A DNA stretch of 23,581 bases from positions 1 through 23,581 of IMG/VR virus record IMGVR_UViG_3300037487_001646. One strand, 5' to 3'. The notes under the pieces are model-generated. The model did no database searches, had not been told where the DNA came from, and saw only the letters and a list, made by a program, of their open reading frames with translations. Position numbers and translations under genes: made by a program. Shown here piece after piece: positions 8,402-23,581 of the stretch. The DNA is from a virus. Positions within the stretch are counted from its first letter, which is position 1; each line of letters opens with the position of its first letter.

Positions 8402-9028
8402 GCCGGTCTAGTAGCAGCTTGGTCGCCGAAAAACGGGCTTGGTCAACAGTAACAGGCTTGCTGTCTAAAAATAACAGGCTTGCTTCAGATGGCAAGGGAG
8501 GCCGAATCTAACATTGCCCTGCAATAGAAACTCACTGCCGACCGCGCAGTTATCAGTCGAACATCAGCCAAAGCGCTTCGTCTTTCTACGTGCCCACCTG
8601 TTTGCAAACCACGCTGTACACCAGCGGAGTTGCGTAGCAACGGAGCTGTCTGCCGTCTTTCGGTCTAGTACACACACAGGCACGAACGCCTTTGGGCAAG
8701 CAAGTGGTTGTTGCCAGTGAGTGCCGGTCGCTGCCGCGTCATTGCTGTCTGTCTAGTGAATATGTTTGTTTGTTCATTGTTTGTTCATTGTTTGTTCATT
8801 GTTTATTCTTGTTGTTTGTTCTGGTTCTTTGTTCTTGATTGTTGTTGTTGTTGTTATATGTTTGTTTGTTCTTTGTTTGTTCTTTGTTTGTTAATCTTTT
8901 ATTCTTTTGTTTGTTTGTTTGTTGTTGTTAATTTGTTTGTTTCTTTTCTTCTTGTTCCGTGTTTTGTTCTCTCTTTTTTTTTTCCCCTTTATGCCGCCCC
9001 GAGAATTATTGCCATTTCGTTTTGAAAG
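8402..9028. other. gene-free leader region upstream of the late operon
   Basis: No credible gene. The open frame at 8708-9025 encodes only Cys/Phe/Leu/Val-rich sequence because the DNA is a TTTG/TTG repeat. Strand composition switches from AC-rich (about 8150-8345) to GT-rich (about 8755-8965). The heptamer GTCTAGT recurs at 8406, 8663 and 8751 here, and at 8146 and 8175 just upstream. No clear sigma70 promoter was found in front of the terminase genes. Confidence 0.6.
8755..8990. repeat. GT-rich low-complexity tract with tandem 11-mers
   Basis: GTTTGTTCATT is repeated three times exactly (8768-8800), and GTTTGTTCTTT 2.6 times (8864-8892). The rest is irregular TTTG/TTG/TGTT. The tract ends about 40 bases before the small terminase gene. 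Confidence 0.85.
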
Positions 9029-9580
9029 TTGTATGATGTTGTCGTTATGCGCAGGTCAAAGGATTTGGTTTCTCCGATTTTCAAGCGTGCTGAAACTGAG
9101 GTCCGTATGTGGGATGCTCGGATGAAGGATATGTCTGACGTTGAGATATCTGATTTGGTTGGCTTGAGTGTTGGTGTTGTTCGCAGTTCTCTGGCTTCTA
9201 TGCTGCGTCGTATTTCTTCTGAGGGCAATTTAATTGCTCGTAGTTGGGCTGTCCGTGAGACTGTTTTGTTATTTCAGGACATTTACTCACCTGCTGAGGT
9301 TCTGTGGCGTGAGTCTGGTGATCCTCGTTATGCTGAGTTGATGCGTGGTGCATTGTCTGACATTCGCAAGATTTGGGGTGTTGATGCGCCCCAGCGTGTG
9401 CAGACATTGAGTGTTCACGTTGGAGTTATGGACAGTGAGTTGGGGAGGTTAAGTGTCGATGAGCTTAGAATGCTCCGTGGAATGTTCCCGGGTGATTCCG
9501 GCGGGTGTGACGGCGGAGTCGATCCGTCTGGCTCTGGCTTACCGGAGCTTCCCGGATTATTGTCGGTTAGTAACCCCTGA
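9029..9580 (+). CDS. terS: putative terminase small subunit, 183 aa
   Basis: Proposed DNA-recognition subunit of the packaging motor, placed by position directly before the large subunit. An HTH-like segment, DVEISDLVGLSVGVVRSSLA (residues ~37-56), fits the DNA-binding domain of small terminases; the middle is helical and the C-terminus is Gly/Pro/Ser-rich. The start is uncertain: TTG 9029 or ATG 9047, neither with a good ribosome site, which is unusual in this genome. It overlaps the large-subunit gene by more than 100 bases in another frame. Codon use is T/G-rich, continuing the upstream composition. No sequence-level family match is claimed; the call rests on HTH and position. Confidence 0.65.
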   Translation: MYDVVVMRRSKDLVSPIFKRAETEVRMWDARMKDMSDVEISDLVGLSVGVVRSSLASMLRRISSEGNLIARSWAVRETVLLFQDIYSPAEVLWRESGDPRYAELMRGALSDIRKIWGVDAPQRVQTLSVHVGVMDSELGRLSVDELRMLRGMFPGDSGGCDGGVDPSGSGLPELPGLLSVSNP

Positions 9581-10976
9581 CTGGGTAGATGCTCCTCACT
9601 TGGATTATTTGTGCAGTCGTGCGGAGTTGGTTGCGTCTCGTGATATTCGTCGTTTGATTATCAACATTCCCCCTGGTTACGCTAAGTCTTGGATTTTCTC
9701 CCGTTGTTTTTCTTCTTGGTATTTGATGCGTTATCCTGCTCGTGAGTTTATGCTTTTGAGTTACGGTGATGATTTGGCTATTGAGCACAGTTCCGCTGCT
9801 CGGTCGATGTTTAGTATTTTTTCGCCTCTGATTACTGGTGCTGGTATGTCTCGCGATAGCAAAAGCGTAAGCCGTTGGATGGTTGACGTGGGTTCTGGCG
9901 GTCGCGGCGGTGGTATGATGGCTTGTGGGATTGGTTCTTCTGTCACTGGCCGCCGTGCTGATGTGATTGTGGTAGATGACCCGTTCAAGAACTGGGAAGA
10001 GGCTAATTCCGAGGTGGCTCGGGAAAAGGTTTGGGATGCTTACCGGTCTGTGATTCGGAGTCGTTTGCGTCCAAAGGGTTGTATTGTTGTTATCCAGACG
10101 CGCTGGCACAAGGATGACTTGACTGGCCGTTTGTTAGATCACGAGGGTGGTATGAAGTGGGAACACGTAAAGTTACCGGCTCGTGCTTTGGAGAATGATT
10201 TGTTAGGCCGTGATATTGGAACGCCATTATGGCCTGAAATGTATGACGATGCTGAGTTGACTGAGGTTGAGGGTGATATTGGTCCTGTTTTCTGGGCTTG
10301 CGAGTTCCAGCAGGAGCCAGAGGAGCCAAAGGGTCGGTTTTTCAAGTCTGACTGGTTCCGTTATTTTCACACTGACGGCGATTACTTTGTTCTGGGTGCT
10401 GATGTCGGTGACATTCGTTACCACAAAGATGAGTGTGTGATTGTGCAGACGATTGACCCGGCTTCGACTGAGGAGTCTCGGAATGACTTTTTCTGTCAGT
10501 GTGCCTGGGTTTTGTGTCCGTCTGGTGAGATTGGTCTGCTGGCGGTCCAGCGTGAGCATATAGCAACGACTGAGCATATAGATGACATCATATCATTCAA
10601 CGAGAAGTATAGTGCAGCTTGGATTTGCGTAAGCAAGCGGGCTGCTGGGTTGAATCTGTTCCAGCAGTTGGATGATATGGGTTTTGCTCTGGAGGAGATT
10701 GTCGAGGATGTGTCCAAGTTATCACGATCTTTGGTTATCATGCGTAAGTATCGTCGCGGTGAGGTGTATCATTTACGTGATGCTCCGTGGATTTTCGCCA
10801 TTGAATCGGAGTTGAAGTCATTTCCGGGCGGCAAGAATGATGACTTTGTTGACAATGCTTCTGCGATAGGTATACAATCGTCGCAGATAGGCTTATGTGG
10901 TTCTGAGGCGGTCGAAGCATTCGGACAGAGCAGAAAGGGCAGTAGTTATGGGCTGGAATCTGTTTTCATTCGGTAA
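9453..10976 (+). CDS. terL: terminase large subunit (packaging ATPase/nuclease), 507 aa
   Basis: Motor that pumps DNA into the prohead and cuts concatemers. Visible: Walker A PPGYAKS (residues 73-79), Walker B VIVVDDP (171-177), motif III/coupling QTRWHKDD (215-222), and nuclease-domain acidic residues in LGADVGD (D317) and near GGKNDDFVDNAS in the C-terminus, the last being the usual third metal ligand region. Length is typical. The start is GTG 9453 or ATG 9459, after GGGGAGG; the deep overlap with the previous gene is odd but the sequence before Walker A looks genuine. It overlaps the portal gene by 29 bases. Confidence 0.95.
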   Translation: MSMSLECSVECSRVIPAGVTAESIRLALAYRSFPDYCRLVTPDWVDAPHLDYLCSRAELVASRDIRRLIINIPPGYAKSWIFSRCFSSWYLMRYPAREFMLLSYGDDLAIEHSSAARSMFSIFSPLITGAGMSRDSKSVSRWMVDVGSGGRGGGMMACGIGSSVTGRRADVIVVDDPFKNWEEANSEVAREKVWDAYRSVIRSRLRPKGCIVVIQTRWHKDDLTGRLLDHEGGMKWEHVKLPARALENDLLGRDIGTPLWPEMYDDAELTEVEGDIGPVFWACEFQQEPEEPKGRFFKSDWFRYFHTDGDYFVLGADVGDIRYHKDECVIVQTIDPASTEESRNDFFCQCAWVLCPSGEIGLLAVQREHIATTEHIDDIISFNEKYSAAWICVSKRAAGLNLFQQLDDMGFALEEIVEDVSKLSRSLVIMRKYRRGEVYHLRDAPWIFAIESELKSFPGGKNDDFVDNASAIGIQSSQIGLCGSEAVEAFGQSRKGSSYGLESVFIR

Positions 10977-12216
10977 TAGGCTTCCCCGTGAGGATGTTGG
11001 CAGGGATGTAAGTGTTGGCGGTAGTTTATCTGGTTATCAGAATCCTGATGACTTGATTGGCGCAAAGGGTATCGAGGTTTATGACACGATGAGCAGGAAC
11101 GCTCAAGTGTCTGCTTGTCTGTCTATAAAGCGGGCTTCCGTGTTATCCCGTGGTTGGGATGTGGGTGTTGGCGAGAAGTCCAATGGTGTTCGCGAAGAGG
11201 TTGTTGAGTTCTGCAAGTATGTATTCGAGTGGATGGACGGCAGTTTGTTTGGTGTGCTTGAGAATGTCTGTGATGCTCTGGCGAAGGGTTATTCCATACA
11301 GTCTCTTGTATGGGATAACATAGAATCCGGTAAGTTCAAGGGCAATGTTGCCCCCCGCTACATTTATGCAAAGGACCCTGCTGATTGGCAGTTCATCGTA
11401 GATGACTACCGGCACGTCACGGGTTTGCTTCACACTCCGACGAGTGAACGCTTCTCCCGCTCTGGTTTCGTCGTTTTCACTTACCGCGGGATTTACGGGA
11501 ATCCTTACGGGTATTCTGACCTTAGGAATTGTTACCGTAACTGGTGGAGCGTGGATTTTCTGGAGCGGTTCTGGAATATGTATATGGAGAAGTTTGGCGC
11601 ACCAACGGTCAAGGGAACGTATAAGCGGGGCTTATCTGCCGCTGCGAAAGCCACCTTTATGTCTGCGCTGTCTGCTGTGCAATCTAAGTCTGCTCTGGTT
11701 TTCCCCGAAGATATGAAAGTGGAATTGTTGGAAACAATTCGGCAGGGTGAATCTGGATTCCGTCTTGCTACGGAATATCACAACAAGCAGATAGCCAAGT
11801 CTATTCTCAACCAGACTTTGGTGACTGATTCCGGCGGTGGAGTCGGTTCTTTTGCTATGGCGAAGGTGCATTTGGATGTGCTTCGGATGTGTTTGCGTGG
11901 CTTGAAGCAGGATTTGGAAGAAACTGTTGTCAGGGAACAGATTCTTCGCCCTTTGGTCGCTGCAAACTACGGAGCAGATGAGCCGGTCCCGATATTCACT
12001 CTCGGACCATTGGAAGATCGCGAAATCGAACCGCTGTCTCGGGCTGCTGGCAATATTGTCACGGCTGGGATTCTTGACCCTGCTGATCCGTGGTTCCGCG
12101 AGTTCCTTGGAATCTCTGGTGGAGGAAAGTCTCCAGCGAAGCCGGAGGCTGGTCCGACCGTAACTAGGACAAGGGTTGATGGCAATACCAACGATGCAAG
12201 TGTAAAGGTGGGTTGA
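10948..12216 (+). CDS. DUF935 (Mu gp29-like) portal protein, 422 aa
   Basis: Forms the dodecameric ring through which DNA enters and leaves the capsid. The segment around YDTMSRNAQVSACLSIKRAS and the following GWDV, the FGNPYGYSDLR-like region (IYGNPYGYSDLRNCYRNWW) and the KFGAPTVKGTY stretch are characteristic of the Mu gp29/DUF935 family. ATG 10948 is preferred over the longer GTG/ATG reading from 10897 because AAAGGG lies about 8 bases upstream. The C-terminal ~30 residues are Pro/Thr/Lys-rich and probably disordered. Family members are usually 420-520 residues, so this is a compact but complete copy. Confidence 0.92.
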   Translation: MGWNLFSFGNRLPREDVGRDVSVGGSLSGYQNPDDLIGAKGIEVYDTMSRNAQVSACLSIKRASVLSRGWDVGVGEKSNGVREEVVEFCKYVFEWMDGSLFGVLENVCDALAKGYSIQSLVWDNIESGKFKGNVAPRYIYAKDPADWQFIVDDYRHVTGLLHTPTSERFSRSGFVVFTYRGIYGNPYGYSDLRNCYRNWWSVDFLERFWNMYMEKFGAPTVKGTYKRGLSAAAKATFMSALSAVQSKSALVFPEDMKVELLETIRQGESGFRLATEYHNKQIAKSILNQTLVTDSGGGVGSFAMAKVHLDVLRMCLRGLKQDLEETVVREQILRPLVAANYGADEPVPIFTLGPLEDREIEPLSRAAGNIVTAGILDPADPWFREFLGISGGGKSPAKPEAGPTVTRTRVDGNTNDASVKVG

Positions 12217-12217
12217 T

Positions 12218-13012
12218 ATGCCGACAAGTATAACGCACGAAGATATAAAGCCAAGGATGTGTATTCCGCTGGCCACCACCACGTATGACACCGAGCTTGA
12301 TACAATTTGCACTGGTGTCGGGGCGGGTGTTGACGGTGCTGCTGGCACTGCTCCTGCTGCTTTGCTCAAGGAAGCTGCCATAATGATTGCTGCAGGCACT
12401 GCTTGGATTGGTATGGCGAATCGTCCCGGCTATGCTGAGTCTTTTGTCGCTGTCGGTGTAACGGTCGGCGGGATGAACAAAGATGGGGCTATTGACCTTG
12501 TAAAGACTGGCTGGCAGATATTGCTCCCGTATTGTGGGCAGAAGGTGGCTGCTGAGGCTGCCGAGGCAGCTTTTGCCGCTGCTCTGGCTGCTGCCCGTGA
12601 TGATGATGTCGCTGCACAGGCTGACGCTGAGTTGCTCAAGCTGCAGAATGAGGCTGGTGAGTCCGGTTCCCGCAAGCTGCTTTTGGATTCACAGGAGTTG
12701 AAAACTGACGCAGAGAAGCTGCTTGTGGATGCTCAGACTGCGATTGCTGTCTCTGAGGAGTTGAGAATTGATGCTCTGACAGCTTTGCTGGTCAAAGAGG
12801 CACTGACCGAAGTAGAAAAGGCTCTTGGTGTCGTTGCGTCAGCTGCTTTGTCTACAGCTTTGAGTCTGGAGTCTGCGCAGCGGACCGCTGCAAAGACTAT
12901 AGAGGTTACTCGTCTAACGAGGGCAGAAACACTGGTGGACGATTCCGCAGAGTGTGATTCTACCACTGATGACTATTTGTTTACTATGACTTCCGGGGAG
13001 TATACGAGATGA
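12218..13012 (+). CDS. possible head-tail connector (adaptor) protein with long Ala-rich helical domain, 264 aa
   Basis: Placed right after the portal, the usual place for the first connector (adaptor) protein. The N-terminal ~100 residues (ITHEDIKPRM..., YDTELDTICTG..., LLKEAAIMIAA) fit the helical pattern of gp6/gp15-like adaptors. Residues ~110-240 are extremely rich in Ala, Glu, Leu and Asp, with repeated AEAA, KLLLDSQELKTDAEKLLVDA and related motifs: a long coiled coil or helical bundle not found in normal adaptors, which are about 100-120 residues. The ribosome site is AAGGTGGG. It ends in an ATGA overlap with the next gene. The adaptor call is inferred; a scaffold-like or fibre role for the long helical part is possible. 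Confidence 0.6.
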   Translation: MPTSITHEDIKPRMCIPLATTTYDTELDTICTGVGAGVDGAAGTAPAALLKEAAIMIAAGTAWIGMANRPGYAESFVAVGVTVGGMNKDGAIDLVKTGWQILLPYCGQKVAAEAAEAAFAAALAAARDDDVAAQADAELLKLQNEAGESGSRKLLLDSQELKTDAEKLLVDAQTAIAVSEELRIDALTALLVKEALTEVEKALGVVASAALSTALSLESAQRTAAKTIEVTRLTRAETLVDDSAECDSTTDDYLFTMTSGEYTR

Positions 13013-13338
13013 GTCTACTCACTGACCGTTTTGATGCTGGCATTGACAGGCTTGGTGAGAGCATAACTTGGACAAAGTTGAACGGTTCCGCTGGTAGTTT
13101 TGCTCATAACTGCATAGTTCGTCCGGCTGAATCCGGTTTGCTGAATACGTTTTTTGATATCATAGAGTTGTCTGCGTTTGGTCGTCCGGTAGTGATTGTA
13201 ATAGTTAAGGCTGCTGTGACTGCAAAGGCTGCTGATACATTTACCCGCGATTCCGTGGCTTGGAGATGTGAGCGGGTGTTTACTCTGCGATTAAGTAACG
13301 AGGCTATTGGAAAGTATGTTCTGATGAGTCAGGTGTAA
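13009..13338 (+). CDS. possible head-completion/stopper protein, 109 aa
   Basis: Follows the adaptor candidate, where tailed phages place the head-closure (stopper) protein. It begins MSLLTDRFDAGIDRLGESITWTKL and continues with alternating beta strands (RPVVIVIVKA, WRCERVFTLRLS), matching the length and general beta-barrel pattern of stopper or head-tail joining proteins, which often start with a short helix then an ITWT-like strand. Overlap ATGA with the upstream gene and GGGGAG ribosome site. The family is not firmly recognised; position and fold pattern are the evidence. Confidence 0.6.
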   Translation: MSLLTDRFDAGIDRLGESITWTKLNGSAGSFAHNCIVRPAESGLLNTFFDIIELSAFGRPVVIVIVKAAVTAKAADTFTRDSVAWRCERVFTLRLSNEAIGKYVLMSQV

Positions 13339-13339
13339 T

Positions 13340-13837
13340 ATGAGAAAACTGTCTAATGGTTTAGAATACAAAGAGAAAGACACTCCGAACATAAGTATTC
13401 GTAAGTCTCGTCCTTCTGTTGTCGTTCTGCACCATACCGGCGGTCTCGGTCTAGGTAACGTGGCGTGGCTGTGCAGTCCGCACAGCAAAGTATCTGCCGA
13501 TTGGTATATTTCACGGGCTGGGTCTATCTGGAAGCTGAATCCTCAGATAGCAACGTATTATACTTGGCACTGCGGAGTCAGTAAGTTCCTCACTTACAAG
13601 GATGTCAATCCTGTAAGTATCGGCATTGAGCTTGAGCATGTGCCAGGGCAGGATTGGCCTGAAAGCCAGATCAAGGCTTGCCATTTGGTTTGTGAGTTTA
13701 TGATGACTAGGTTTTCCAAGATCACTATTGACCGTATCGTCGGCCACAAAGATATTGCTCTGCCTGTGGGCAGGAAGAATGACCCCGAAGGTTTTCCGTG
13801 GGTATTATTTCGCAAACTGTTCACAGGAGGTGATTGA
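13340..13837 (+). CDS. N-acetylmuramoyl-L-alanine amidase endolysin, 165 aa
   Basis: Zinc amidase of the T7-lysozyme/AmpD (Amidase_2) type that cuts the bond between muramic acid and the peptide of peptidoglycan, freeing progeny phage. Zinc ligands are visible: H31 or H32 in VVLHHTGG, H136 in IVGHKDIA and D148 in GRKNDPEGFPW. SIGIELEH (residues 93-100) supplies the conserved Glu strand. No signal peptide and no separate cell-wall-binding domain, so it needs a holin for export; a holin-like gene follows immediately. Unusually, it sits inside the head gene cluster between connector and protease genes. Confidence 0.94.
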   Translation: MRKLSNGLEYKEKDTPNISIRKSRPSVVVLHHTGGLGLGNVAWLCSPHSKVSADWYISRAGSIWKLNPQIATYYTWHCGVSKFLTYKDVNPVSIGIELEHVPGQDWPESQIKACHLVCEFMMTRFSKITIDRIVGHKDIALPVGRKNDPEGFPWVLFRKLFTGGD

Positions 13838-14077
13838 GTGCATGATTATGAAACAGTGGTCATTGCAGCATTGGGCGGGTTTCTGGGGATGGCTACGGCG
13901 CTTGGTTATGGGTTCAAGACACTCGTGGATGTCGTGTCGAAGCAGTTAGCTGTGCAGAATGATAGTATAAAGACAATCCAGCACGGGATGGCTGCTGACT
14001 TAAAAAAGCACATTGATGACTGCTCCCATTGCAGAAACAGAATTGATAGGTGGGAAAATGATCGAACGAGAAGCTAA
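13838..14077 (+). CDS. putative holin-like single-span membrane protein, 79 aa
   Basis: GTG start directly after the amidase stop, with an almost consensus AGGAGGTGAT ribosome site. One transmembrane helix near the N-terminus (residues ~7-26, rich in Ala, Gly and Leu), then a hydrophilic coiled-coil tail with a DCSHC motif (C62, C65) and a charged end. Size, topology and pairing with the endolysin suggest the holin or a related lysis membrane protein; the CxxC is unusual for a holin. It overlaps the protease gene by 20 bases. Confidence 0.62.
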   Translation: MHDYETVVIAALGGFLGMATALGYGFKTLVDVVSKQLAVQNDSIKTIQHGMAADLKKHIDDCSHCRNRIDRWENDRTRS

Positions 14078-14939
14078 GTTGTTCGAGGCTGGAGATTATC
14101 CAGATAGAGATATTACATTCACTGGAGCCGATCTTGATGCGGTTATAGCTGGATTCAAGGTAGGGCAGAAGATTCCAATAAAAATTGGACATTCTGATAC
14201 GCCGTTTGACGGCCTACTGGGTCAAGTGACTAGGCTGTGGAGGGTTGGCTCTAGTCTGATGGGAACGCTATCTTTTCCGGAACATGTATGGGATTTTCTG
14301 GAAAAGATGAACACCAAGAAGTTGTCGGTTGGTTTTGACAGGCTTTCTAGGAGAATCAAGGAGGTCTCCATAGTATCTCATCCGCGCATATTGACAGCTC
14401 GGGTATTTAGTGATACAGTTTCAGGGAACGTAGTGTTCGAGGATAAGTGGGATGATGTCAGAGGAGGTGCTAAGTTGAACGAGTTCAGTGCAGAAGTAGT
14501 TACACTTATGAAAGCGGAGCGTGAAGCTGGTCGCGCTGAGGGTCAGGCTGCTGCCGAGACGCAGTTCGAGGCAAGAGTATCTTCAATCGCGAGAGAGAAC
14601 GCTGAAATGAAGCGTCTTTCGGCATTAGACGAGGCAGACAAGAAGATACTCGGCTGGAAAGCTGAGGGTAAACTCACTCCGGCTGCTGAGAAGTATGCTC
14701 AGGCTATTCTTGTGGACGGTAACGCCGAAGTTACGTTCTCTGATGGCGGGCATATGAAAGTGAGTGAGTCGTTCGTGCAGTTCATGCTTCACCAGAGCGC
14801 AATGCTCAATATGGTCAAGGGAACGCCGGAAGTTCCAGCAGACACCACGAGCGAAATCGACAAGCAGGTCTACGCTCTGCTCGGAGTTACTCCTGAGCAG
14901 GTGGCTGAAGCCGACAAAGAAATCAAAGACGCGAAGTAA
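14058..14939 (+). CDS. prohead protease with C-terminal scaffold-like region (Mu gpI-like), 293 aa
   Basis: Capsid maturation protease fused to scaffold. The N-terminal domain (~1-140) shows the pattern of phage head proteases: FEAGDYPDRDITFTGADLDA, IPIKIGHSDTPFDG with the likely catalytic His, KKLSVGFDRL with the likely Ser, and KEVSIVSHPRILTARVF. Residues ~160-293 are helical and charged (AEREAGRAEGQAAAETQFEA onward), as expected for an internal scaffold; Mu makes its scaffold from the same gene. ATG 14058 with AGGTGGG is preferred over the longer reading frame from 14013, which overlaps the holin-like gene. Lies just before the capsid genes. Confidence 0.85.
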   Translation: MIEREAKLFEAGDYPDRDITFTGADLDAVIAGFKVGQKIPIKIGHSDTPFDGLLGQVTRLWRVGSSLMGTLSFPEHVWDFLEKMNTKKLSVGFDRLSRRIKEVSIVSHPRILTARVFSDTVSGNVVFEDKWDDVRGGAKLNEFSAEVVTLMKAEREAGRAEGQAAAETQFEARVSSIARENAEMKRLSALDEADKKILGWKAEGKLTPAAEKYAQAILVDGNAEVTFSDGGHMKVSESFVQFMLHQSAMLNMVKGTPEVPADTTSEIDKQVYALLGVTPEQVAEADKEIKDAK

Positions 14940-14954
14940 AGGAGGAACAGACAA

Positions 14955-15476
14955 ATGGCGTATGGAGCTTCTGGGCAAGCATGGGATTGCAAACGGAGCG
15001 AGTCGGATTTGATTTCATATCCGATGGGCGTTGTAAAGATATGGAAAGGTAGCCTGTGTATGATAAACGCCGCAGGGTTCGTTGTTCCAATGACGGACAC
15101 AGCAACCGGCGATTATTTTGCAGGTGTGTCGCAGGAGACTGTTGACAACCGGTATACAGTCATGGGCGATTCAAGCAGTGCTGCTGCTACGGCCGGAGAC
15201 AGGAGTTGCAACCTTTGGCAAACTGGTGTGTTTGAGTTCAAACACGCTGGGGCTGCTCGTACCGATGTTGGGCTTCCCGCGTTCTGGTCTGGTGCTGTGG
15301 CTGATGCACAACAGACTGTTGAGTCTGCAACCACTGCTGCCACTCACGACTTCATGGTCGGGCAGATTGTTTGGGTGTCGGCTGAAACCGCAGCAACCAG
15401 AGTGAGAATCAAGATAGATGGGTATGCCAGCTATGGCGCACCTGAAGCGTCTGTCATTGGTGGACTTTCAACGTAA
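14955..15476 (+). CDS. putative capsid decoration/head protein (DUF2190-like), 173 aa
   Basis: Small beta-rich protein between protease and major capsid protein, the usual place for head decoration (cement) proteins. The start has AAAGGAGG 8 bases upstream. The segment GVVKIWKGSLCMINAAGFVVPMTD, then GDYFAGVSQETVDN and later GQIVWVSAE, resembles the DUF2190 type, in which strands surround K-G-x-x-V and D-x-x-x-G-x-x-x motifs. Ala/Thr-rich with few charged residues. Function by position and general pattern; a fold prediction would settle it. Confidence 0.62.
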   Translation: MAYGASGQAWDCKRSESDLISYPMGVVKIWKGSLCMINAAGFVVPMTDTATGDYFAGVSQETVDNRYTVMGDSSSAAATAGDRSCNLWQTGVFEFKHAGAARTDVGLPAFWSGAVADAQQTVESATTAATHDFMVGQIVWVSAETAATRVRIKIDGYASYGAPEASVIGGLST

Positions 15477-15502
15477 GAAAATAGAGAAAGGGGGATGAAG
15501 AA

Positions 15503-16444
15503 ATGGCGTTCGGACCTTATGACCTTCCGGTCGGTCCTTTGACAAAGGGGCTGAAAGCAGTATTCATGCAAGCATACAAATTGTATAGCGAGAAGTCGCT
15601 TATCAATCGTATATGCACAGTAGTTAAGTCTGAAACCGACAGCGAGGATTATTCTTGGCTGGGTGCAGTTCCCAAAGTCCGTGAGTTCCTCGGACCACGG
15701 CAGATGAAAGACTTAGCTGCGTTTAACTACAACATCCGAAACAAGACGTGGGAAAACACTCTTGGCATCAAGCGCACTGATCTTGAAGATCAGAAATTGG
15801 GTATGGTCACTCTCCGTGTTCAGCAGTTGGCTGAGGAAGCTGCCAGATACCCAGAGGAGCTGGCGATGAGTTTCCTGACAGGCGCGCTGGGTTCCGCTGC
15901 TACTCCGTATCTCTGTTACGATGGTCAGGGTTTCTTTGACACTGATCACACAATCACCAGTGACATTGGTGGGGCTGTGCAATCGAATAGAGCTGGAACG
16001 GCATTGGCAATCGCTACCCTGTGGGCTGGAATCTCTGCTATGAGGATGTTCAAAGATGATACGGGACGTGTTATGAACATGGTCCCCGATTTGCTGCTTG
16101 TCGAACCGTGTTTGGAGCAGACGGCTAAAGAGCTGATTCCTCCGGCGTATGGCGGCATAAGTGCACAGGTGTCGGTGTTGTCTAACATGGGAATAGACGT
16201 TGAAGTGAGTCCTCTGCTGTATTCCACTACCACTGTGGCTAACGGTAACTGGTTCCTGTTGAACACCAAGAGCGCAGTGAAACCGCTCATACTCCAGCAA
16301 CGAGCTGGTGTAGAGTTCGGCAGTTTGGAAAAGGAATCCGATTCCGGGTTCATGCGTGATGAATACACGTTTGGAACACGAGCGCGCTATAATGTCGGCG
16401 CTGGTCCGTGGTTCACCATCTACGGTAACGCTGGAGCTGGATAG
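15503..16444 (+). CDS. major capsid protein (Mu gpT-like, HK97 fold family), 313 aa
   Basis: Main shell subunit. The order LYSEKSLINRICTVVKSET..YSWLGAVPKVREF, then YNIRNKTWENTLGIKRTDLEDQKLG, RYPEELAMSFL and the YDGQGFFDTDH motif is diagnostic of the Mu major head subunit gpT family. Length matches (about 300). Strong GGGGG ribosome site. Followed by a hairpin at 16455-16482 that may reduce transcription of downstream genes, giving high capsid-to-downstream ratio. No large deletion or extra domain is visible. Confidence 0.94.
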   Translation: MAFGPYDLPVGPLTKGLKAVFMQAYKLYSEKSLINRICTVVKSETDSEDYSWLGAVPKVREFLGPRQMKDLAAFNYNIRNKTWENTLGIKRTDLEDQKLGMVTLRVQQLAEEAARYPEELAMSFLTGALGSAATPYLCYDGQGFFDTDHTITSDIGGAVQSNRAGTALAIATLWAGISAMRMFKDDTGRVMNMVPDLLLVEPCLEQTAKELIPPAYGGISAQVSVLSNMGIDVEVSPLLYSTTTVANGNWFLLNTKSAVKPLILQQRAGVEFGSLEKESDSGFMRDEYTFGTRARYNVGAGPWFTIYGNAGAG

Positions 16445-16454
16445 TCCAAAGCAT

Positions 16455-16485
16455 ACACACCCGCTAGAAATAGCGGGTGTGTTTA
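16455..16485 (+). terminator. hairpin with GAAA loop after the capsid gene
   Basis: Perfect 12-bp stem ACACACCCGCTA / TAGCGGGTGTGT with a GAAA tetraloop, followed by TTT. Probably a partial terminator or RNA-stability element between the capsid and next genes. Confidence 0.6.
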
Positions 16486-16501
16486 GATAAGGTGGAAACA
16501 G

Positions 16502-17134
16502 ATGAGGAATGGAGAAATACTTTACAGGGGAACGGTAGATTGGACGATCAACGAGGATTCGATAGAAACCCTAGATGTTCCGTTGCTTCCTCTCGGCGAT
16601 GAAGATCGCTGTCTGCTGTCAATCCGCAACTGTTCGGCTACTGTTGACCTGACCGTAGACATCGGCACAATGGAGTACGTTTACCAGAAAACCACTACTC
16701 CGCGTGGAACTGTGGCCTGTCTAACCGTGGACGCAGGTGACCTTGTCACATGCGTCGGTCACGGTCTTACCATAGGTGACTGCATAGTGTTTGGAACAGT
16801 CGCAGGAAACACCGTGGTTGGCACTAAGTATTATGTCATCAGCACGGCGGACGCTAATACATTCCAGTTTGCTACTGTTCGAGGTGCTGCTGCGTTCACG
16901 GTGGACGCAACGGCTGGCGCGAACACTTTCACGATAAGTGATGAGTTCTTTGTTCTGACCAGTGTTTTTGTCCCGAAGGCTGCCACCGGTTCGACAATTC
17001 TGGCTGTGCCTGGTCTAGTCACCCGGGTCATAGCTGGCTGGCCGTTTGGAACAACCGGTGGCAGGCTGGCGTTCATGAAGTCTGCTGCTGCTGCTGCTGT
17101 ATTCAATGCTTCGGTAGAAATCAGGAGGCTGTGA
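16502..17134 (+). CDS. beta-rich structural protein with nested phage fibre-type domain, 210 aa
   Basis: Probable virion protein. The N-terminal part (~1-60, with LPLGDEDRCLLSIRNCS) and the C-terminal part (~150-210) look like one beta domain interrupted by an insert: HGLTIGDCIVFGTVAGNTVV, TKYYVISTADANTFQFATVRG and a following strand. The insert matches the small beta-sandwich found repeatedly in phage tail fibres and head decorations (pattern H-G-L-x-x-G-D, Y-Y-V-I, D-A-N-T-F). Ribosome site AAGGTGG. It could be a head fibre or surface decoration; no tail homologue is recognised. Confidence 0.68.
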   Translation: MRNGEILYRGTVDWTINEDSIETLDVPLLPLGDEDRCLLSIRNCSATVDLTVDIGTMEYVYQKTTTPRGTVACLTVDAGDLVTCVGHGLTIGDCIVFGTVAGNTVVGTKYYVISTADANTFQFATVRGAAAFTVDATAGANTFTISDEFFVLTSVFVPKAATGSTILAVPGLVTRVIAGWPFGTTGGRLAFMKSAAAAAVFNASVEIRRL

Positions 17135-17346
17135 TGAGTAGTTTGCTTGAGAGGAAAATGGTCTGCCAAGATCGTCTGTTGGTTGAGCGTGTTGAACAGG
17201 CACTTGCTGAGGCTGGGAAGTCCGCGAATGTCGCTGCCGTTGTCGCTGGTCTGGTTGCTGCTGCTGAGTTCAGTGCTGGCAAGGCTCCTACGTCTAGCGA
17301 AGTGACTGATGATGAGATAATCGCATTCGTGAGGGCATCGGCGTGA
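17134..17346 (+). CDS. small helical protein, 70 aa
   Basis: ATG 17134 overlaps the stop of the preceding gene and follows AGGAGG; GTG 17131 is an alternative. A first helix with ERVEQALAEAG, then a second Ala/Val-rich segment and a short acidic C-terminal helix (DDEIIAFVRASA). Not membrane-spanning by charge distribution. Function unknown; its place between two surface-protein candidates suggests a structural or chaperone role. GTGA overlap with the LamG gene indicates coupled translation. Confidence 0.65.
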   Translation: MSSLLERKMVCQDRLLVERVEQALAEAGKSANVAAVVAGLVAAAEFSAGKAPTSSEVTDDEIIAFVRASA

Positions 17347-18107
17347 ATACACCTTGGTCTGCCATAGTTGGTGACATGGATACTTGTGCAGGGGGTATCA
17401 TATATCCTCCGCGTCTTTATCCCGGGTCGCGTCTCTGCATAGAGACGGAAAACCAGATGTCAGGTCGCAAGGTGATGGAACACGTCTACAATAAGCCATT
17501 GACTGTCAATGGCGCTGTGGCTGCACAGGCTGCTCATACAAAGGTTCTTCTGTTCGATGGGTCTGATGATTATGTAAGCTGTGGCGCTGAGTCGGGGTAC
17601 AACACCGTTGGCGTTGGAACCGCTGCGGTCTGGGTAAAGAGTACTGTTGCTTATCCTTCGGTTGACGGTACAAGCCGTTACAGGGGGATTATCGGAAAGA
17701 CTACAGGTGCTACCGCAGATAAGGTTGTCTTTCATCTGGATTGGTATGGAACCAACATAGCTCGAACACTCAGGGGTATGGTAAGTGATGGGGCTACTGC
17801 AAAATCAGCATACGTCGCAGGACAGGACCTCAGTGAATGGACGCATGTAGCTATGGTATGGGATGCAGTCAATGTCAGGATGTATGTCAACGGTCTCAAG
17901 GCAGGTGTCGCTACTGCAACGGGCTATGTCATACAGCAGTTACCTGCCGCGAATGTAGAAGTAGGTAGAGGTTTTTGTGTAGCTAACGCAAGTTACGCTT
18001 GGACAGGCTCGGTTGGCGGGGTAAGGATTCTTGATTGTGCCGCGTGTGCACACATGATGTATGAAATGTTTCAAAGCGAAGCCAGGCTGTATGGTGTCAA
18101 GGTGTAG
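17343..18107 (+). CDS. LamG/concanavalin A-like domain protein, 254 aa
   Basis: Candidate receptor- or carbohydrate-binding surface protein. After a ~60-residue N-terminus with two Cys, a LamG-type jellyroll spans ~65-250: LLFDGSDDYVSCG opening strand, AAVWVKS, IIGKTTG, the WTHVAMVWDAVNVRMYVNGL core, and the closing VGGVRILDC strand. These are standard markers of the LamG_3/concanavalin family used by phages as fibre or decoration domains. Start is GTG 17343 after GAGGG. It is the last gene before the terminator. With no recognisable tail, it may be attached to the head or connector. Confidence 0.87.
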   Translation: MNTPWSAIVGDMDTCAGGIIYPPRLYPGSRLCIETENQMSGRKVMEHVYNKPLTVNGAVAAQAAHTKVLLFDGSDDYVSCGAESGYNTVGVGTAAVWVKSTVAYPSVDGTSRYRGIIGKTTGATADKVVFHLDWYGTNIARTLRGMVSDGATAKSAYVAGQDLSEWTHVAMVWDAVNVRMYVNGLKAGVATATGYVIQQLPAANVEVGRGFCVANASYAWTGSVGGVRILDCAACAHMMYEMFQSEARLYGVKV

Positions 18108-18175: not shown

Positions 18176-19768
18176 TCACACCATACAGGCTGATGACGTA
18201 GCTGGCCGGAGGATAATCACTCCTTTCTTCGCCCGTGTCAGAGCAACATACATTAGTCTGCGTATGTTGTCTCTGCCGGAGCCATTCCATTCATAGAAAC
18301 CTTGCGGTGAAAGGTCGGGGATGACGATCACTACATCGGATTCCCCGCCTTTGACGCTGTGAATTGTTCCAATAATCACATCCGGTGGAATCTGGGAAGC
18401 ATCTAGAAACGCAGTTCCTAGGTTATTCACGATTGTGATTGCATACTTTGCTTTCCGTCTGGCTTCGTCGTTTACCAGATGGGCTTCGTACCATACTAGG
18501 TCGCAAGCCATAAGTCTGTTTACAGCTTCTTCAGTGAAGTATTCAAACATCATATCAAGGCTCACTGAAGAAATGTCGTCTAGTTTGTTCTTCATTCCCT
18601 TCCGGAATACTCCATCTGCTTTCAGCACACTGGTAGCAGCTTTTAGTTGGTCTGCAGACCACATAGGTTTCACCGAGTCCAGCGGAGCAAGGAACGATGA
18701 TACTCGTTCCGCGTATGTAGTCCCTGCCGTTAGCTTCAGTGGATTCCAGTCACCTCTTATTAGCCTGTATGGGTTATGGAACGGGATTCCCGCGTTCCTG
18801 AGCGCGTGTTTGGCAGTCTCTACCATATACGAGCAAGAGCCTATGACCATACTGGAGAGTCCTTTGTCCAGGACGGTTTGTATGGTCTGCACAATTTGGT
18901 CGCCGTCCATAAACGAGCATGGAGCGTGAGTAACAAACCCGGGGTCGTCGGAATGCTTCGGCATATAATCCTTTGGCACTCTGGTTCTCACTTTAGCTAT
19001 CCAGCTGGACGCAAACTCCCACGGGTTGTAAGGAACCCTGTATGACTGTTCAAGCACAGTATCGTTGCTTGGTATGCTCTTATCCGCGAATGCTTCTGGT
19101 GCTGCCCCAGCGAACTGATAGATACACTGGTCGTCATCACCCGATAGCACGAGCCGTTTTGCCTGTAAAGCCCATTTACGAATCACAGCCAGTTGTAAGG
19201 CTGTGCAATCCTGAGCTTCATCAACGATTATTGTCTGCGGTCTGCCCGGAGCGCACTGGTCTGAAGCCAGTGCATCTTCGAGCATATCGGTGAAGTCGAT
19301 TCCACCGGCAGACCGTTTCCATCTTCTCCACGCTTCGTAGAATCTGGCTGCGTTCTTGGGCCATAATTCTATCGGAGTTAGTTTGTTCCGTAGGATTGTG
19401 GTGGCAGCGTGTAGCCTGTCACCGTTTGTTATGTCGTTAGACATTTCCATCACTGAGTCAGTGGTCCTCACTGACGGAGCGGAGAGTCTGTATTCTGGAG
19501 CGTAAGCGTTCCACTCCATTACTGATGATGATTTTGATTCCAGTATCGGCGGTGTCCCCATCGCCGAGTAACATGCTTTGTGCAGTGTCCCGACATTCTC
19601 TGTCTGGATAGACGTGCACCTGCTGGCTATTTCTTCCGCTGCTGCATTGGTGTATGAGCAGATCATAACACTTCCCCCACCGTCTTGAGCTGCAACGGTA
19701 GTTGCTATTCTTGTCAGGTTTGTAGTCTTGCCTGTTCCCGGCGGTCCGAAGATTCTTTCTTCTGTCAT
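18176..19768 (-). CDS. UvrD/PcrA-type superfamily 1 DNA helicase, 530 aa
   Basis: 3'-5' DNA helicase of the UvrD/Rep class. Motifs in order: Walker A GPPGTGKT (8-15), motif Ia SYTNAAAEEI (~38-47), DFTDML, Walker B IIVDEAQD (180-187), motif III GDDDQCIYQFAGA (210-222), motif IV region YRVP, motif V TIHSVKGGE (468-476) and motif VI RRLMYVALTRAKK (507-519). Slightly short for UvrD (about 600-730), mainly in accessory domains 1B/2B. ATG 19768 is preferred over the TTG at 19819 because it directly precedes the Walker motif as usual. Last gene of the early operon; probably works with the primase and SNF2 protein in replication. Confidence 0.94.
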   Translation of the reverse strand: MTEERIFGPPGTGKTTNLTRIATTVAAQDGGGSVMICSYTNAAAEEIASRCTSIQTENVGTLHKACYSAMGTPPILESKSSSVMEWNAYAPEYRLSAPSVRTTDSVMEMSNDITNGDRLHAATTILRNKLTPIELWPKNAARFYEAWRRWKRSAGGIDFTDMLEDALASDQCAPGRPQTIIVDEAQDCTALQLAVIRKWALQAKRLVLSGDDDQCIYQFAGAAPEAFADKSIPSNDTVLEQSYRVPYNPWEFASSWIAKVRTRVPKDYMPKHSDDPGFVTHAPCSFMDGDQIVQTIQTVLDKGLSSMVIGSCSYMVETAKHALRNAGIPFHNPYRLIRGDWNPLKLTAGTTYAERVSSFLAPLDSVKPMWSADQLKAATSVLKADGVFRKGMKNKLDDISSVSLDMMFEYFTEEAVNRLMACDLVWYEAHLVNDEARRKAKYAITIVNNLGTAFLDASQIPPDVIIGTIHSVKGGESDVVIVIPDLSPQGFYEWNGSGRDNIRRLMYVALTRAKKGVIILRPATSSACMV

Positions 19769-19808
19769 TTTGTTTTCTTCTCTCTGTCTGAAGCATTCGC
19801 TTTTAACC

Positions 19809-19937
19809 CTACCAGTCAAACGGCGCGCCGTTTAGCTCAGATACGTTGTGGCAAGCCTCTAGCTGGTCGCATTCCTCGTCATCGAGTCCGCAAGTTCCGA
19901 TGCGGTGGTTGTAGAATGGACACTGGCCGCAGATCAC
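19809..19937 (-). CDS. tiny Cys-rich zinc-finger-like protein, 42 aa
   Basis: Previously easy to miss because of its length. GTG 19937 overlaps the upstream stop (GTGA) and has a perfect GGAGG 7 bases before it. The product begins VICGQCPFYNHRIGTCGLDD and has five Cys (3, 6, 16, 23, 29) followed by His30, a plausible zinc-binding pattern. It ends 41 bases before the UvrD start. Family not known; a small adaptor or transcription-affecting protein is possible. Confidence 0.7.
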   Translation of the reverse strand: MICGQCPFYNHRIGTCGLDDEECDQLEACHNVSELNGAPFDW

Positions 19938-20182: not shown

Positions 20183-20396
20183 TTTCTCTCGCCTTCCATA
20201 TGTGACAGTAGCCATCATCAGTCGTTCCCGTGCAGTAGTAGTCGCAATATCTACCGATGCCAGTTTCACAATAAGATTTACAATCTTCGTACCGACCCTT
20301 AATCTGGTTGGCGCGGAGTTTCTTAATGATAGTCGCACTCATAGCAAGCCTGTTTCTACATGCCTCGTTCTCCCGCTCCAGTTCATTGTTTATCAT
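20169..20396 (-). CDS. small Cys-rich protein, 75 aa
   Basis: ATG 20396 overlaps the previous stop (ATGA) with AGGA upstream. An N-terminal charged helix (NNELERENEACRNRLA, residues 3-18) precedes a basic stretch and then a cluster of Cys and Tyr (C39, C43, C51, C55, C64), which suggests a metal-binding knuckle. No family recognised; could be a nucleic-acid or protein adaptor. Very tight packing with neighbours argues it is real. Confidence 0.62.
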   Translation of the reverse strand: MINNELERENEACRNRLAMSATIIKKLRANQIKGRYEDCKSYCETGIGRYCDYYCTGTTDDGYCHIWKARENDKQ

Positions 20397-20722
20397 CTTG
20401 TGTTCCTGCTTTCTACCGTCGCGGTTTGAATTGGTTCGGGTGTTGGGCAAATTGCTCTATTCCCTTTGGCTTTGACTATAGCCCATTCAATCAGCAGTCC
20501 AGCAATGCTGTCGGGAATGTGCAGGGAGCAGGATGCGTAAACCTGAGTCTGTAACGCTGCTATCGCAAGCTGCCGTCTTTTGGTGTTGGTCGTCTTGCTT
20601 CCTGAAGCTGCCTTGTCAATGGCAGCTACTACGGAGGACCACCCACCGATAAGCTGTAGCCATTTCCAGACACAAGCAGGGAGACTTAGAAACTTGACTA
20701 GGTTGAGTATAAAGTTAATCAT
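20393..20722 (-). CDS. LL-H-type holin-like protein, 109 aa
   Basis: ATG 20722 overlaps the primase stop by 8 bases. A hydrophobic N-terminus (MINFILNLVKFLSLPACVWK) is followed by a helical region whose pattern (AAIDKAASGSK..KRRQLAIAALQ, then a short linker and IPDSIAGLLIEWAIVKAKG) resembles the C-terminal part of LL-H-family holins, where K-x-x-A-x-x-x-L precedes I-D-x-x-I-x-x-L-I-E-x-A-V. If so, a second membrane-lysis-type gene sits in the early rather than late operon. The resemblance is a pattern, not a confirmed family match; a membrane-linked replication accessory is the alternative. Confidence 0.6.
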   Translation of the reverse strand: MINFILNLVKFLSLPACVWKWLQLIGGWSSVVAAIDKAASGSKTTNTKRRQLAIAALQTQVYASCSLHIPDSIAGLLIEWAIVKAKGNRAICPTPEPIQTATVESRNTR

Positions 20723-22289
20723 TTGATTTGAACTCCTTTGGTAGCTTCCATACGTTCGTCTTGTCTGGCAAGGTAATAGGTTCCGCGCCTACGGCACGGA
20801 GCGAAAGCCCAAGGCTTCGCGCAGTAACTCGGTCGCCGAAGTGGACCGAAACCCACTGCCGAAGTGTCGGAGCAGATAGAAAGATGTTCTGCCCGTCTGT
20901 CCACGGTGAGCCAGAAGATATGCCATCTTCTGCGAAACCTGCCGTAGGCAGGTGAGTGATGTATGCTCTAAGCCAGTTCGTTATCTGCCCAACGGTCGTC
21001 GTCTCTCCCCCCGCTGATTCTTTTCTGACGAACCCTAAGAGTAATCTGACGCAGACTTCATAGTGGTCAGTCTTTAGCTTCGGTATCAGGATTCCGATAG
21101 TAGCTGCAATCTTGTTCCTGCACATCGTTTGTGATGTCAGGTATTCAATGCTTCCCAGTGGAACACACAAACCAGATTTAAGGACCAGCGAGAACGCTGG
21201 TTCTTCGGAGTCGAACCGTATCAGTTCGAGTATCGAGACACTCAAGTGTTGAGATACGTATAGCATAGCCGTTTCTTTCGAGGCGAAAGCCGATTCGCTT
21301 GCTGGCCGGTCCGGTGACTGGGATTCGAACTTGGCTTTGGAAACAGTGGCTTCATAGTATGAGGCTGCTTTCTGGGGCAACGAGTGCTTCCGTCTGAATT
21401 GCTTGAGAACCGATTGCGTGGCTTCTATAGAGAATCCTGCTCGGATGCAGTATTGGGCAAGGCTCATATCATAGGCTGATGGCGATTGGTCGCGGAGCTT
21501 TGGGTTCCGATTGTTCCAAGTCGCCATTATGTCGTTGTTGGTTTCAAGCAGGAATTGCAGTTCTTCTGTTGGGAACTCCTGCACAGGTATTACCACATCG
21601 TCTGTGTCTTTTGTCGGAATCGGGTTCGCAAAGACTGGAACTCTCACTCTCACTGGAGTTGCCTGTGCAAACACCGATAAGTTGTAACGTAGCATAGAAT
21701 CTAAGAATCTTAGTTCGACTGGAACTGGCGCCGAAACTATTTTGTGGTTAGTCGTTCCTGGCAGTCTCATCACCCGCGATAAGTCGCATACTGAATCCGC
21801 GTCAAAGCCGGTGGATGCACAGTAGGCTCTCCACTTATCGGAGAATCCAATGAGCATATCGGATATCATTTCCCTGTTGCTGTCTGTTACGGAAGTCCAC
21901 TGCGTAAGCAGATACCACATCTGAAACCCGTGGCCTGAATGCACAATGGCAGAAGGCTTGAGCGCAGGGAAAGCATCTTCTGCCATAGCTATCGCTTGGG
22001 CTTCACTAGCCGGAAGCCGGTCTTTCTTGTGGGCATCACTGGCGATGTCTATGTCAAGCCAGAATGCTCCAATACCAGATACGTGACTGCTCCCGCCTCT
22101 CTTTGTCGCTCCCAGATGGAGTGAGCTTGGCCGCGTCCCGCAGCCAAAGTAAGTGTCACGTTTGTATAACGAAGCGTCGATAGTATCACTGACATTGAAC
22201 CACGAGGAAGTCTTTGTTGCTGACTGCCATATAAGTATAGAGTCGTCTGAAGCCTTGCCTCGAAACACTGCATCCACTAGTGCGTTCAT
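20715..22289 (-). CDS. archaeo-eukaryotic-type primase / primase-polymerase, 524 aa
   Basis: Initiates DNA synthesis by making primers. The N-terminal AEP domain is visible: FWLDIDIA with catalytic Asp79 and Asp81, SGHGFQMWYLL (118-128) containing the conserved His, and DLSRVMRLPGTTNHK (169-183), the third-Asp/R-x-P-G-T-x-N-x-K signature. The ~200-300 linker is Pro/Val-rich; the C-terminal part (~300-524) has helical modules of the PriCT kind plus a winged-helix-like end but no Walker motif, so helicase activity must come from other genes. ATG 22289 after GGGGGAGG is preferred to TTG 22304. It is preceded by the hairpin 22316-22347 and the SSB-like gene. Confidence 0.88.
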   Translation of the reverse strand: MNALVDAVFRGKASDDSILIWQSATKTSSWFNVSDTIDASLYKRDTYFGCGTRPSSLHLGATKRGGSSHVSGIGAFWLDIDIASDAHKKDRLPASEAQAIAMAEDAFPALKPSAIVHSGHGFQMWYLLTQWTSVTDSNREMISDMLIGFSDKWRAYCASTGFDADSVCDLSRVMRLPGTTNHKIVSAPVPVELRFLDSMLRYNLSVFAQATPVRVRVPVFANPIPTKDTDDVVIPVQEFPTEELQFLLETNNDIMATWNNRNPKLRDQSPSAYDMSLAQYCIRAGFSIEATQSVLKQFRRKHSLPQKAASYYEATVSKAKFESQSPDRPASESAFASKETAMLYVSQHLSVSILELIRFDSEEPAFSLVLKSGLCVPLGSIEYLTSQTMCRNKIAATIGILIPKLKTDHYEVCVRLLLGFVRKESAGGETTTVGQITNWLRAYITHLPTAGFAEDGISSGSPWTDGQNIFLSAPTLRQWVSVHFGDRVTARSLGLSLRAVGAEPITLPDKTNVWKLPKEFKSND

Positions 22290-22315
22290 TCTTGCCTCCC
22301 CCAAAGAGTGAAAGC

Positions 22316-22354: not shown

Positions 22355-23209
22355 TTAGTCGTCGGTTTCTTGCTGGGCTGCCTTACGAGCTTCTTCGAAT
22401 GGGTCGAACGTATCGAATGTAGATGGTTCTGCTACTGGTGTATCGTTGGCAAGTGGTATGCCGGAGGATTGAAGTGCGCCTTGTAGTGCTTCGGCATATA
22501 ATCTGATTGAAGCTCTCAGGTTTCGAGGAAGTGCCTCCGAGAACGTAGGCACTACGACTGAATAGTCGGGTGTGCCGTTCCCCTGCACTTTCTTGAGTGC
22601 CAGTGTAGTAACGCAGCCATAGAATGGCAAGGCGTTCCCTGCAAGTCGTGCCATATACTTCGCCATAATCCCTTTGGAAGTCCGAGGGATTGATACAACC
22701 AGCGGAAGTGCGCTCTGCTCCGGTAGCAGGTAAAGAAGCTTCTTCTCTTTGCAAGCCTTACCCTTTCCGCTCCCACTTGAGTCTGAACCCCACTGACCCA
22801 GTGGGCATATCCTACAGTCGCCTCCCGGTGTGCCAACACCAAGAACACCGTCATTAGAGTAGCAGTCCGGGGCTGCTGTCCCCGCTTCTATGCTCGAACT
22901 CCAGTATGCCCTAGCGTCTGACATTAGTAGAATTATCCCAGTCAATGACTTGGCTGGAGTCGTGTCGCCTTCCAGTGTCGGCACTTCAAATGTCGTGCCT
23001 CCTCCTGCCGGAACGGTTATCTTATCCAGATCACCCAGATGAACTCCGTCCGCTCCTAGATTCTCCTGCATAATCGACATAATGTCATCTGCAAGATCAG
23101 GCATAAGGATTGGGTATCTGGTCGTATCGAATGCCTCAACGTCCCGTGCTGCAATCCTAGCAAGGAAAGAAGATGGGTCTGATGTTACGGGTGCAATAGC
23201 TTTCGTCAT
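22355..23209 (-). CDS. predicted single-stranded DNA-binding-like zinc protein, 284 aa
   Basis: Predicted strand-binding protein. It has a four-Cys metal site (C116, C132, C135, C153) around a GTPGGDCRICPLGQWG segment, then LPLVVSIPRTSKGIMAKYM and further strands. It ends in an acidic tail (FDPFEEARKAAQQETDD) like those by which SSB proteins contact partners. This layout is seen in phage proteins found next to primases and helicases and often only labelled hypothetical. ATG 23209 with AGGA. Position between the SNF2 helicase and the primase fits replication. The SSB role is inferred from layout, not from a firm family match. Confidence 0.72.
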   Translation of the reverse strand: MTKAIAPVTSDPSSFLARIAARDVEAFDTTRYPILMPDLADDIMSIMQENLGADGVHLGDLDKITVPAGGGTTFEVPTLEGDTTPAKSLTGIILLMSDARAYWSSSIEAGTAAPDCYSNDGVLGVGTPGGDCRICPLGQWGSDSSGSGKGKACKEKKLLYLLPEQSALPLVVSIPRTSKGIMAKYMARLAGNALPFYGCVTTLALKKVQGNGTPDYSVVVPTFSEALPRNLRASIRLYAEALQGALQSSGIPLANDTPVAEPSTFDTFDPFEEARKAAQQETDD

Positions 23210-23215: not shown

Positions 23216-23581
23216 TTATCCTTTCGTCTGTCGTCTGCGAAGTCCGTCTCGTATGGATTCTACCACATCGCTCTTAGAGGATAAGGCAGAATACACATCT
23301 TCGTCAACGCTGCCTTGTGCAATCAAATGGTAGAGAGTTACCGGCCGTGTCTGTCCGTGTCTCCATATCCGTTTCCTGCTCTGCTGATATTGTGAATATG
23401 ACCAAGTAGAGGAAGAATATATCTGGTATCTGGCTTCGATGAAGCTGACAGCTTCCGCTCCCGCTGCTATCTGAACCAGCAGACATGCTCCCGGGCTGGC
23501 TTTCCAGTCTGCCAACTGGTCAAAGCCTCCCATTAGTCTGAAAGTGCTTCTGCCGGCCGCTCTGATGGCCGTCTCAAGTCC
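23216..23581 (-). CDS. SNF2-family helicase, 3' part (joins to 1-1217 across the junction)
   Basis: C-terminal helicase domain: ACLLVQIAAGAEAVSFIEAR (motif V region), YQIYSSSTWSYSQYQQSRKRIWRHGQ with motif VI, and the closing RPVTLYHLIAQGSVDEDVY. This copy of the junction is in frame with the N-terminal part at 153-1217. TAA at 23216-23218 precedes the SSB-like start by 6 bases. Confidence 0.93.
   Translation of the reverse strand, partial: GLETAIRAAGRSTFRLMGGFDQLADWKASPGACLLVQIAAGAEAVSFIEARYQIYSSSTWSYSQYQQSRKRIWRHGQTRPVTLYHLIAQGSVDEDVYSALSSKSDVVESIRDGLRRRQTKG
23429..23581. repeat. terminal direct repeat, right copy
   Basis: Repeats 1-152 with one extra C that keeps the helicase in frame; probably the correct version of the junction. 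Confidence 0.93.

Follow-up and report, generated by a model that had tools for sequence, protein, structure and literature searches.

Can a virus of bacteria that encodes a complete head and packaging machinery dispense with a tail? This question is raised by IMG/VR virus record IMGVR_UViG_3300037487_001646, the whole 23581 bases of which were analysed here (referred to below as the window), and above all by its late gene block, which runs on the plus strand from 9029 to 18107. To our knowledge, a packaging head of the HK97 type in bacteria either comes with a tail, which the virus encodes itself or takes from elsewhere, or travels on a helper, and tail-less viruses with HK97-type heads are known only from eukaryotes. 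An original prediction, made from the sequence alone, had described this block as a head, packaging and lysis module with no recognisable tail genes, and proposed either a satellite that uses the tails of another phage or a virus that delivers its DNA through a minimal device of a new kind.

Closure of the genome and absence of a tail module

The window carries a direct terminal repeat of 152/153 nt and is a closed genome of 23.4 kb. When the window was rotated on the circle, an SNF2-type helicase open reading frame (ORF) of 506 amino acids (aa) was found intact across the junction (C-terminal part at 23216..23581 on the minus strand, continuing at 1-1307), and its product aligned end to end, at 56% identity, with an uninterrupted 477-aa gene of a near-complete relative, G001 (IMGVR_UViG_3300009285_005074, 24914 bp), which was recovered when IMG/VR was scanned with the portal. 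A single base in a C run distinguishes the two repeat copies (window 27 versus 23455-23456), and the helicase frame is open only with the right-hand copy. Since the helicase is continuous over the junction, the closure is real and no sequence as large as a tail module has been lost at this point. Tail genes hidden at the junction, which the original prediction had itself named as a possibility, were thus rejected, and its view of the unit as complete and circular was borne out by the repeat and the helicase together.

Searches with the late and the main early proteins of the window gave no family match to a tail tube, sheath, tape measure, baseplate or nozzle protein. The sole tail-type match was weak (0.011, tail fibre) and covered just a module inserted in the product of the gene at 16502. 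Profile searches could miss highly diverged tail proteins, and the coding room for such proteins is very small; the ORF list confirmed that no late product exceeds the 507-aa large terminase subunit, TerL.

The same organization was found in relatives. In G001, homologues of the small terminase subunit (TerS), TerL, the portal, the 12218 and 13009 products, the amidase, the holin-like protein, the protease, the decoration protein, the capsid and the 16502 product are encoded in this order, followed by a 422-aa gene, a LamG gene and then the helicase on the opposite strand. To the relative L010 (portal identity 69%), a profile scan added L031-L036 (53-58%). One of these additions is a second closed genome, G011 (IMGVR_UViG_3300036983_000046, 24215 bp, 127-bp terminal repeat), in which a 16502 homologue and a gene for 193 aa are all that lies between capsid and helicase; in the contig L035 this interval is taken up by a 16502 homologue, a gene for 188 aa and a small gene with a cysteine-rich product. 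Core proteins of the window, G001, G011 and L035 are mostly 43-70% identical. Four contigs, with nothing but 16502-type genes and one to three others between capsid and helicase, therefore agree in the absence of a tail module after the capsid, and because the same tail-less order is seen in G011 and G001, the lack of a tail in the window is not an assembly accident. Homologues of TerL, the portal, a gpT-type capsid and the maturation protease, as in the HK97-type heads of Caudoviricetes, are present, and no tail genes of that class were found in the window, G001 and G011 alike. This part of the original prediction stands, family and fold searches having been negative and the absence being common to G011, G001 and L035.

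Head, neck and late proteins

Head, packaging and lysis genes were found to be real by family searches, which showed homology to phage genes; all of them lie on the plus strand. A putative TerS (9029..9580) is named from position only, its gene preceding and overlapping that of TerL; it has homologues in G001 (49%), L010 and L031 and no Pfam match. It is followed by TerL (9453..10976; phrog_38, E 7e-90; 69% identity to G001) and by a portal of the DUF935 or Mu gp29 type (10897..12216; phrog_113, E 6e-69), which is 67% identical to that of G001 and 24-28% identical to the portals of many phages. Beyond two neck genes lie a peptidoglycan amidase or endolysin (13340..13837; PF01510, E 1e-21), a holin-like membrane protein with one hydrophobic stretch (13838..14077), kept after the amidase in G001, L010 and G011, a head maturation protease/scaffold of the Mu gpI type (14013..14939; phrog_976, E 6e-12), a head decoration protein (14955..15476; phrog_1731, E 7e-10) and a major capsid protein of the Mu gpT type, a family with the HK97 fold (15503..16444; PF10124, E 2e-62, and capsid tree). 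A first capsid scan with a single query sequence gave no matches, and capsid relatives were detectable only with profile searches. Mu-like tailed phages of the gpT capsid family share the capsid, protease and portal families with the window, but they have tails, and the window capsid is merely ~34% identical to theirs. Likewise, Meiothermus phage MMP7 and Thermus phage Riverbug resemble the window in their DUF935 portal, Mu-like protease and capsid and replication cassette (UvrD, and in MMP7 a protein of the 22355 type), whereas their genomes are 33-34 kb long and carry full contractile tail modules of ~11 kb.

The gene at 12218..13012 (+) encodes a product predicted to be a head-tail adaptor (residues 1-108) with a C-terminal helix of ~130 residues. 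An AlphaFold2 model built on 19 homologues (pLDDT, the model's own per-residue confidence score, 81) shows helices at 7-14, 24-41 and 47-67, a beta hairpin at 75-84, a helix at 89-102 and a long helix at 108-239, that is, the helical core with a beta hairpin that is typical of HK97 gp6, SPP1 gp15 and the Mu neck protein. In VIA structural alignments of residues 1-108, necks of phages or of a gene transfer agent (GTA) made up 15 of the 16 best rows (Z 8.6-5.7), including P74-26 (8.6; root-mean-square deviation 2.7, 90 aligned), HK97 gp6 (7.9), the Mu neck (7.0), SPP1 (6.2) and RcGTA (6.2); HK97 gp6 also ranked first in Foldseek, but with a non-significant E. In distant relatives (L008, L186-L190) the 12218 homologue stands after the capsid and immediately before the 13009 homologue, which is the usual place of adaptor and stopper. 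The assignment as an adaptor is made because of these neck-fold matches and this gene position, and a role of the 12218 product as a nozzle or tail tube was rejected on account of its predicted fold. The window, L033, L035/L036 and L031 have a long C-terminal extension, but G001 and L010 lack it, and the helix was accordingly rejected as an essential tail. As its hydrophobic periodicity was not above that of shuffled sequences, no coiled coil is claimed. In three contigs (L031:3814-4755, L032:11278-12219 and L034:6719-7669) the adaptor homologue was observed to carry, close to the start of its adaptor domain, an inserted beta module of the fibre type that resembles the one in the 16502 product.

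Directly after the adaptor lies a probable stopper or head-closure gene (13009..13338, +), for which 42 homologous ORFs adjoining adaptors were collected and no match was obtained in family or PDB sequence searches. By its position the product is probably a neck protein, and not a candidate nozzle component. No firm match came from comparison of the adaptor, stopper and 16502 sequences with PDB, Pfam, NCBIfam, PHROGs and phage records.

The 16502 gene (16502..17134, +) is kept at the same place after the capsid in relatives. Its product was modelled by AlphaFold2 from 4 sequences with low confidence (pLDDT 62), giving a beta sandwich formed from both ends and a poorly modelled insert at ~60-148. 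The best structural neighbours found by VIA are jelly rolls (Ena2A fibre, Z 9.3, and picornavirus coat proteins), and the insert is an exchangeable module of the fibre type, found by a profile scan in 19 further viral contigs, mostly as residues ~58-166 alone. The natural reading of the model is a presumed fibre or decoration protein. No tail tube or nozzle match was found for this low-confidence model in the Foldseek PDB and BFVD lists or in VIA, and such a role was rejected within that limit.

Two further late genes follow on the plus strand, one for a small protein of 71 aa (17131..17346), in the place of which G001 has its 422-aa gene, and one for a LamG/concanavalin-like lectin protein (17343..18107; PF13385, E 5e-13; 36% identity to G001), a presumed adhesin. 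The 422-aa gene (L026:9329-10597), located between the 16502 and LamG homologues, is not found in the window; its product looked deacetylase-like by eye and had no match in Pfam and NCBIfam. Neither the 17131 nor the 17343 product is conserved in G011 and L035, where the LamG position is held by an unrelated small protein. The last late genes are thus the least conserved, lectin- or fibre-like, and subject to non-homologous replacement between relatives, as expected of attachment proteins.

Early genes lie on either side of the late block, mostly on the minus strand. They include a UvrD-type helicase (18176..19819, -; PF00580, E 1e-20) related to those of Riverbug and MMP7, a second holin-like protein (20393..20722, -), whose homologue in L186 and L189 has the stopper gene on one side and the peptidase gene on the other, a primase/polymerase-type replication protein (20715..22304, -; phrog_2478, E 1e-12) and a conserved replication-cassette protein (22355..23209, -; phrog_23155, E 1e-41), whose counterparts in MMP7 and further phages adjoin the primase and UvrD genes. 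The cassette of 22355, primase and UvrD is common to ordinary phages, MMP7 among them. With this cassette, an amidase and holin-like genes of its own, the element seems equipped for unaided replication and lysis.

Upstream of the terminase genes, an ORF-poor stretch of ~3.5-4.5 kb was observed in all three near-complete genomes (window 5600-9000, the first 3.9 kb of G011 and both ends of G001). In the window it contains hairpins with perfect 23-bp arms at 8209-8262 and 8347-8401, T-rich TTTGTTTGTTC repeats at 8760-8978, and an insertion sequence (IS)-type transposase gene (rve core, HTH_21; phrog_157) at 6400-7329 (-), near which direct repeats of 40-76 nt lie at 6074-6431, 7554-7594 and 8086-8142. 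An Rfam search of the window and its relatives, this stretch included, gave no match. A gene for a CxxCxxCC (PF03692) zinc/iron-chelating protein, at 4952-5251 (+), is conserved in G001, and its homologue in L035 sits between the capsid genes and the helicase.

Head gene clusters in Armatimonadota genomes

The nearest capsid and portal relatives of the window were found in Armatimonadota genomes, together with the same head and neck set. The portal profile matched Armatimonadota assemblies of the species collection, one of which (L186) has, in order, genes for TerL, portal, protease, decoration protein, capsid, a 127-aa product, adaptor, stopper, a holin-like protein, an M23 peptidase and glycosyltransferases. 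L187-L190 are arranged like L186, and tail genes were not seen in L186-L190. The capsid was found in 122 of 291 Armatimonadota genomes (about 40%), with exactly one match in 114 of them. In 20 inspected regions, protease, decoration and capsid genes, usually with adaptor and/or stopper, stand amid cellular genes; the portal can be separated from them by 20 kb to 1 Mb and has TerL as its neighbour in those cases in which the flank was long enough to show it, and no tail genes adjoin the clusters that were read in detail. Ratios of nonsynonymous to synonymous substitution (dN/dS) for capsid, decoration protein and adaptor between close pairs are mostly 0.02-0.13; these three genes are therefore maintained by purifying selection and are not in decay.

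Known tail families are rare in the capsid-bearing Armatimonadota genomes: PhageMin_Tail was over the cut-off in none of 8 and Sipho_tail in none of 25, and Baseplate_J, Phage_sheath and Phage_tube_2 were found in 5, 4 and 3 of 25, respectively. These absences are indicative only, since in a control PF04984 missed the sheath-like gene of MMP7. The clusters share protease, decoration protein, capsid, adaptor, stopper and portal with the window, likewise without a tail alongside, but they are chromosomal and interleaved with cellular genes, their portal and TerL genes are often elsewhere, and the replication cassette was not seen in them. Single-copy head clusters of this kind (L186-L190, L202-L243) form a candidate domesticated, possibly GTA-like particle system; the observations that bear on a GTA-like nature are the single match in 114 of 122 genomes, the low dN/dS and the dispersed loci. 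In the open-access PubMed Central (PMC) literature, no paper was found on a GTA or head cluster in Armatimonadota.

In the capsid tree, the clade of the window (100/99) is sister to a clade (99/96) of 34 Armatimonadota rows, L008 and 7 viral contigs. The window clade is not simply an escaped chromosomal cluster, because its TerL belongs to another family than that of the clusters. L008 (IMGVR_UViG_3300032053_008054) is listed as viral, and its capsid groups with the chromosomal clusters; it is probably a chromosomal fragment. The host of the window is probably in or near the Armatimonadota.

Possible modes of DNA delivery

We favour, with a probability of about one half, a self-contained head-plus-neck virus that attaches by its late lectin- or fibre-like proteins. 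The head of this small lineage would go back to tailed phages whose heads are Mu-like (DUF935 portal, gpI and gpT), and the tail would no longer be encoded. The terminase would fill the procapsid, the adaptor ring and stopper would then close the portal, and particles would be released through amidase/holin lysis. The finished head may then infect as head plus neck: the 16502 and LamG (17343) products, or their non-homologous replacements in relatives, would bind the cell surface, and the neck, extended in most members by the C-terminal helix of the adaptor, would open and release the DNA. Of the two options first proposed, the new delivery device is thus kept in modified form, as head, neck and adhesins, and is favoured over tail borrowing because of the window's own replication and lysis genes and variable lectin-like late genes; a borrower of tails would also borrow attachment proteins. 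The device as first drawn, from the 12218, 16502 and 17343 products, is not favoured, the first being by prediction an adaptor and the others looking like fibre or lectin proteins more than like a tube or nozzle. More tentatively, and at less than even odds, we suggest the wider picture in which such a tail-less bacterial virus of the HK97/portal lineage has as its head relatives a conserved, tail-less chromosomal particle system of Armatimonadota, possibly a GTA.

Several points weigh against the head-plus-neck virus. Among bacterial viruses that have an HK97-type portal head, we know of none that infects in the complete absence of a tail, and a stopper-type protein normally docks one. Diverged tail proteins could exist, with only late products of 71, 210 and 254 aa left for them. 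The long adaptor helix, being missing from G001 and L010, cannot be an essential delivery device. The sister clade includes the plainly tailed phages L109, L110 and L111, and tail loss has therefore probably occurred more than once in the neighbourhood of the window in the capsid tree. Finally, the host assignment is indirect, drawn from relatives of the head genes.

A capsid-encoding satellite, which would build and fill its own head and depend on a helper phage for tails or for transport, is a serious rival, albeit one that we consider rather unlikely. It is serious because the Streptomyces satellites MiniFlayer and MulchRoom encode terminase, portal, capsid and head-tail adaptor and no tail, and MiniFlayer lacks an integrase and has terminal repeats and adsorption genes of its own (PMC10690885). 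The window resembles both in its head, packaging and adaptor genes without a tail and in its terminal repeats, and MiniFlayer also in the absence of an integrase; the adaptor and the stopper-like protein would offer a ready docking site for a tail. The gene set likewise matches that of capsid-forming phage-inducible chromosomal islands (cf-PICIs), which have a full head, packaging and connector set and no tail (PMC10690885, PMC10803314). However, cf-PICIs average 14 kb (PMC10803314), integrate into the chromosome and use the tails of temperate helpers, whereas the window is closed at 23.4 kb, has lysis genes of its own and yielded an IS-type transposase and no site-specific integrase. The original prediction was right that no integrase is present, unlike in known islands, but the contrast does not extend to capsid-encoding satellites at large, MiniFlayer being an integrase-less capsid-encoding satellite (PMC10690885). 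No primase is recognisable in MiniFlayer and MulchRoom, whereas the window has a primase-type gene, two helicase genes (UvrD and SNF2) and genes for an amidase and holin-like proteins, and its own late genes include variable ones of the lectin type. Association with a helper has been shown for the two satellites.

A very short, unrecognised tail, that is, a stub or nozzle with a new fold built by the 16502, 17131 and 17343 products, is improbable: the 16502 gene is conserved at its place after the capsid and its low-confidence model leaves room for such a fold, but models and searches indicate a jelly roll with an exchangeable insert and a lectin, and 17131 and 17343 lack the conservation in G011 and L035 that an essential tail part should have. 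Loss of tail genes by collapse or deletion during assembly of the 5.6-9.0 kb stretch, which does hold repeats and a transposase gene, is very improbable, as G011, whose closure is independent, has the same gap and no tail either, G001 likewise lacks tail genes, and the tail modules of tailed relatives stand after the neck and not upstream of TerS.

A conserved, closed, tail-less lineage with replication and lysis genes of its own would mean either that a neck suffices for the delivery of DNA into a bacterium or, alternatively, that tail borrowing reaches otherwise self-sufficient viruses. The head cluster, single-copy and under selection in about 40% of Armatimonadota genomes, indicates a domesticated and so far unstudied particle system in this phylum.

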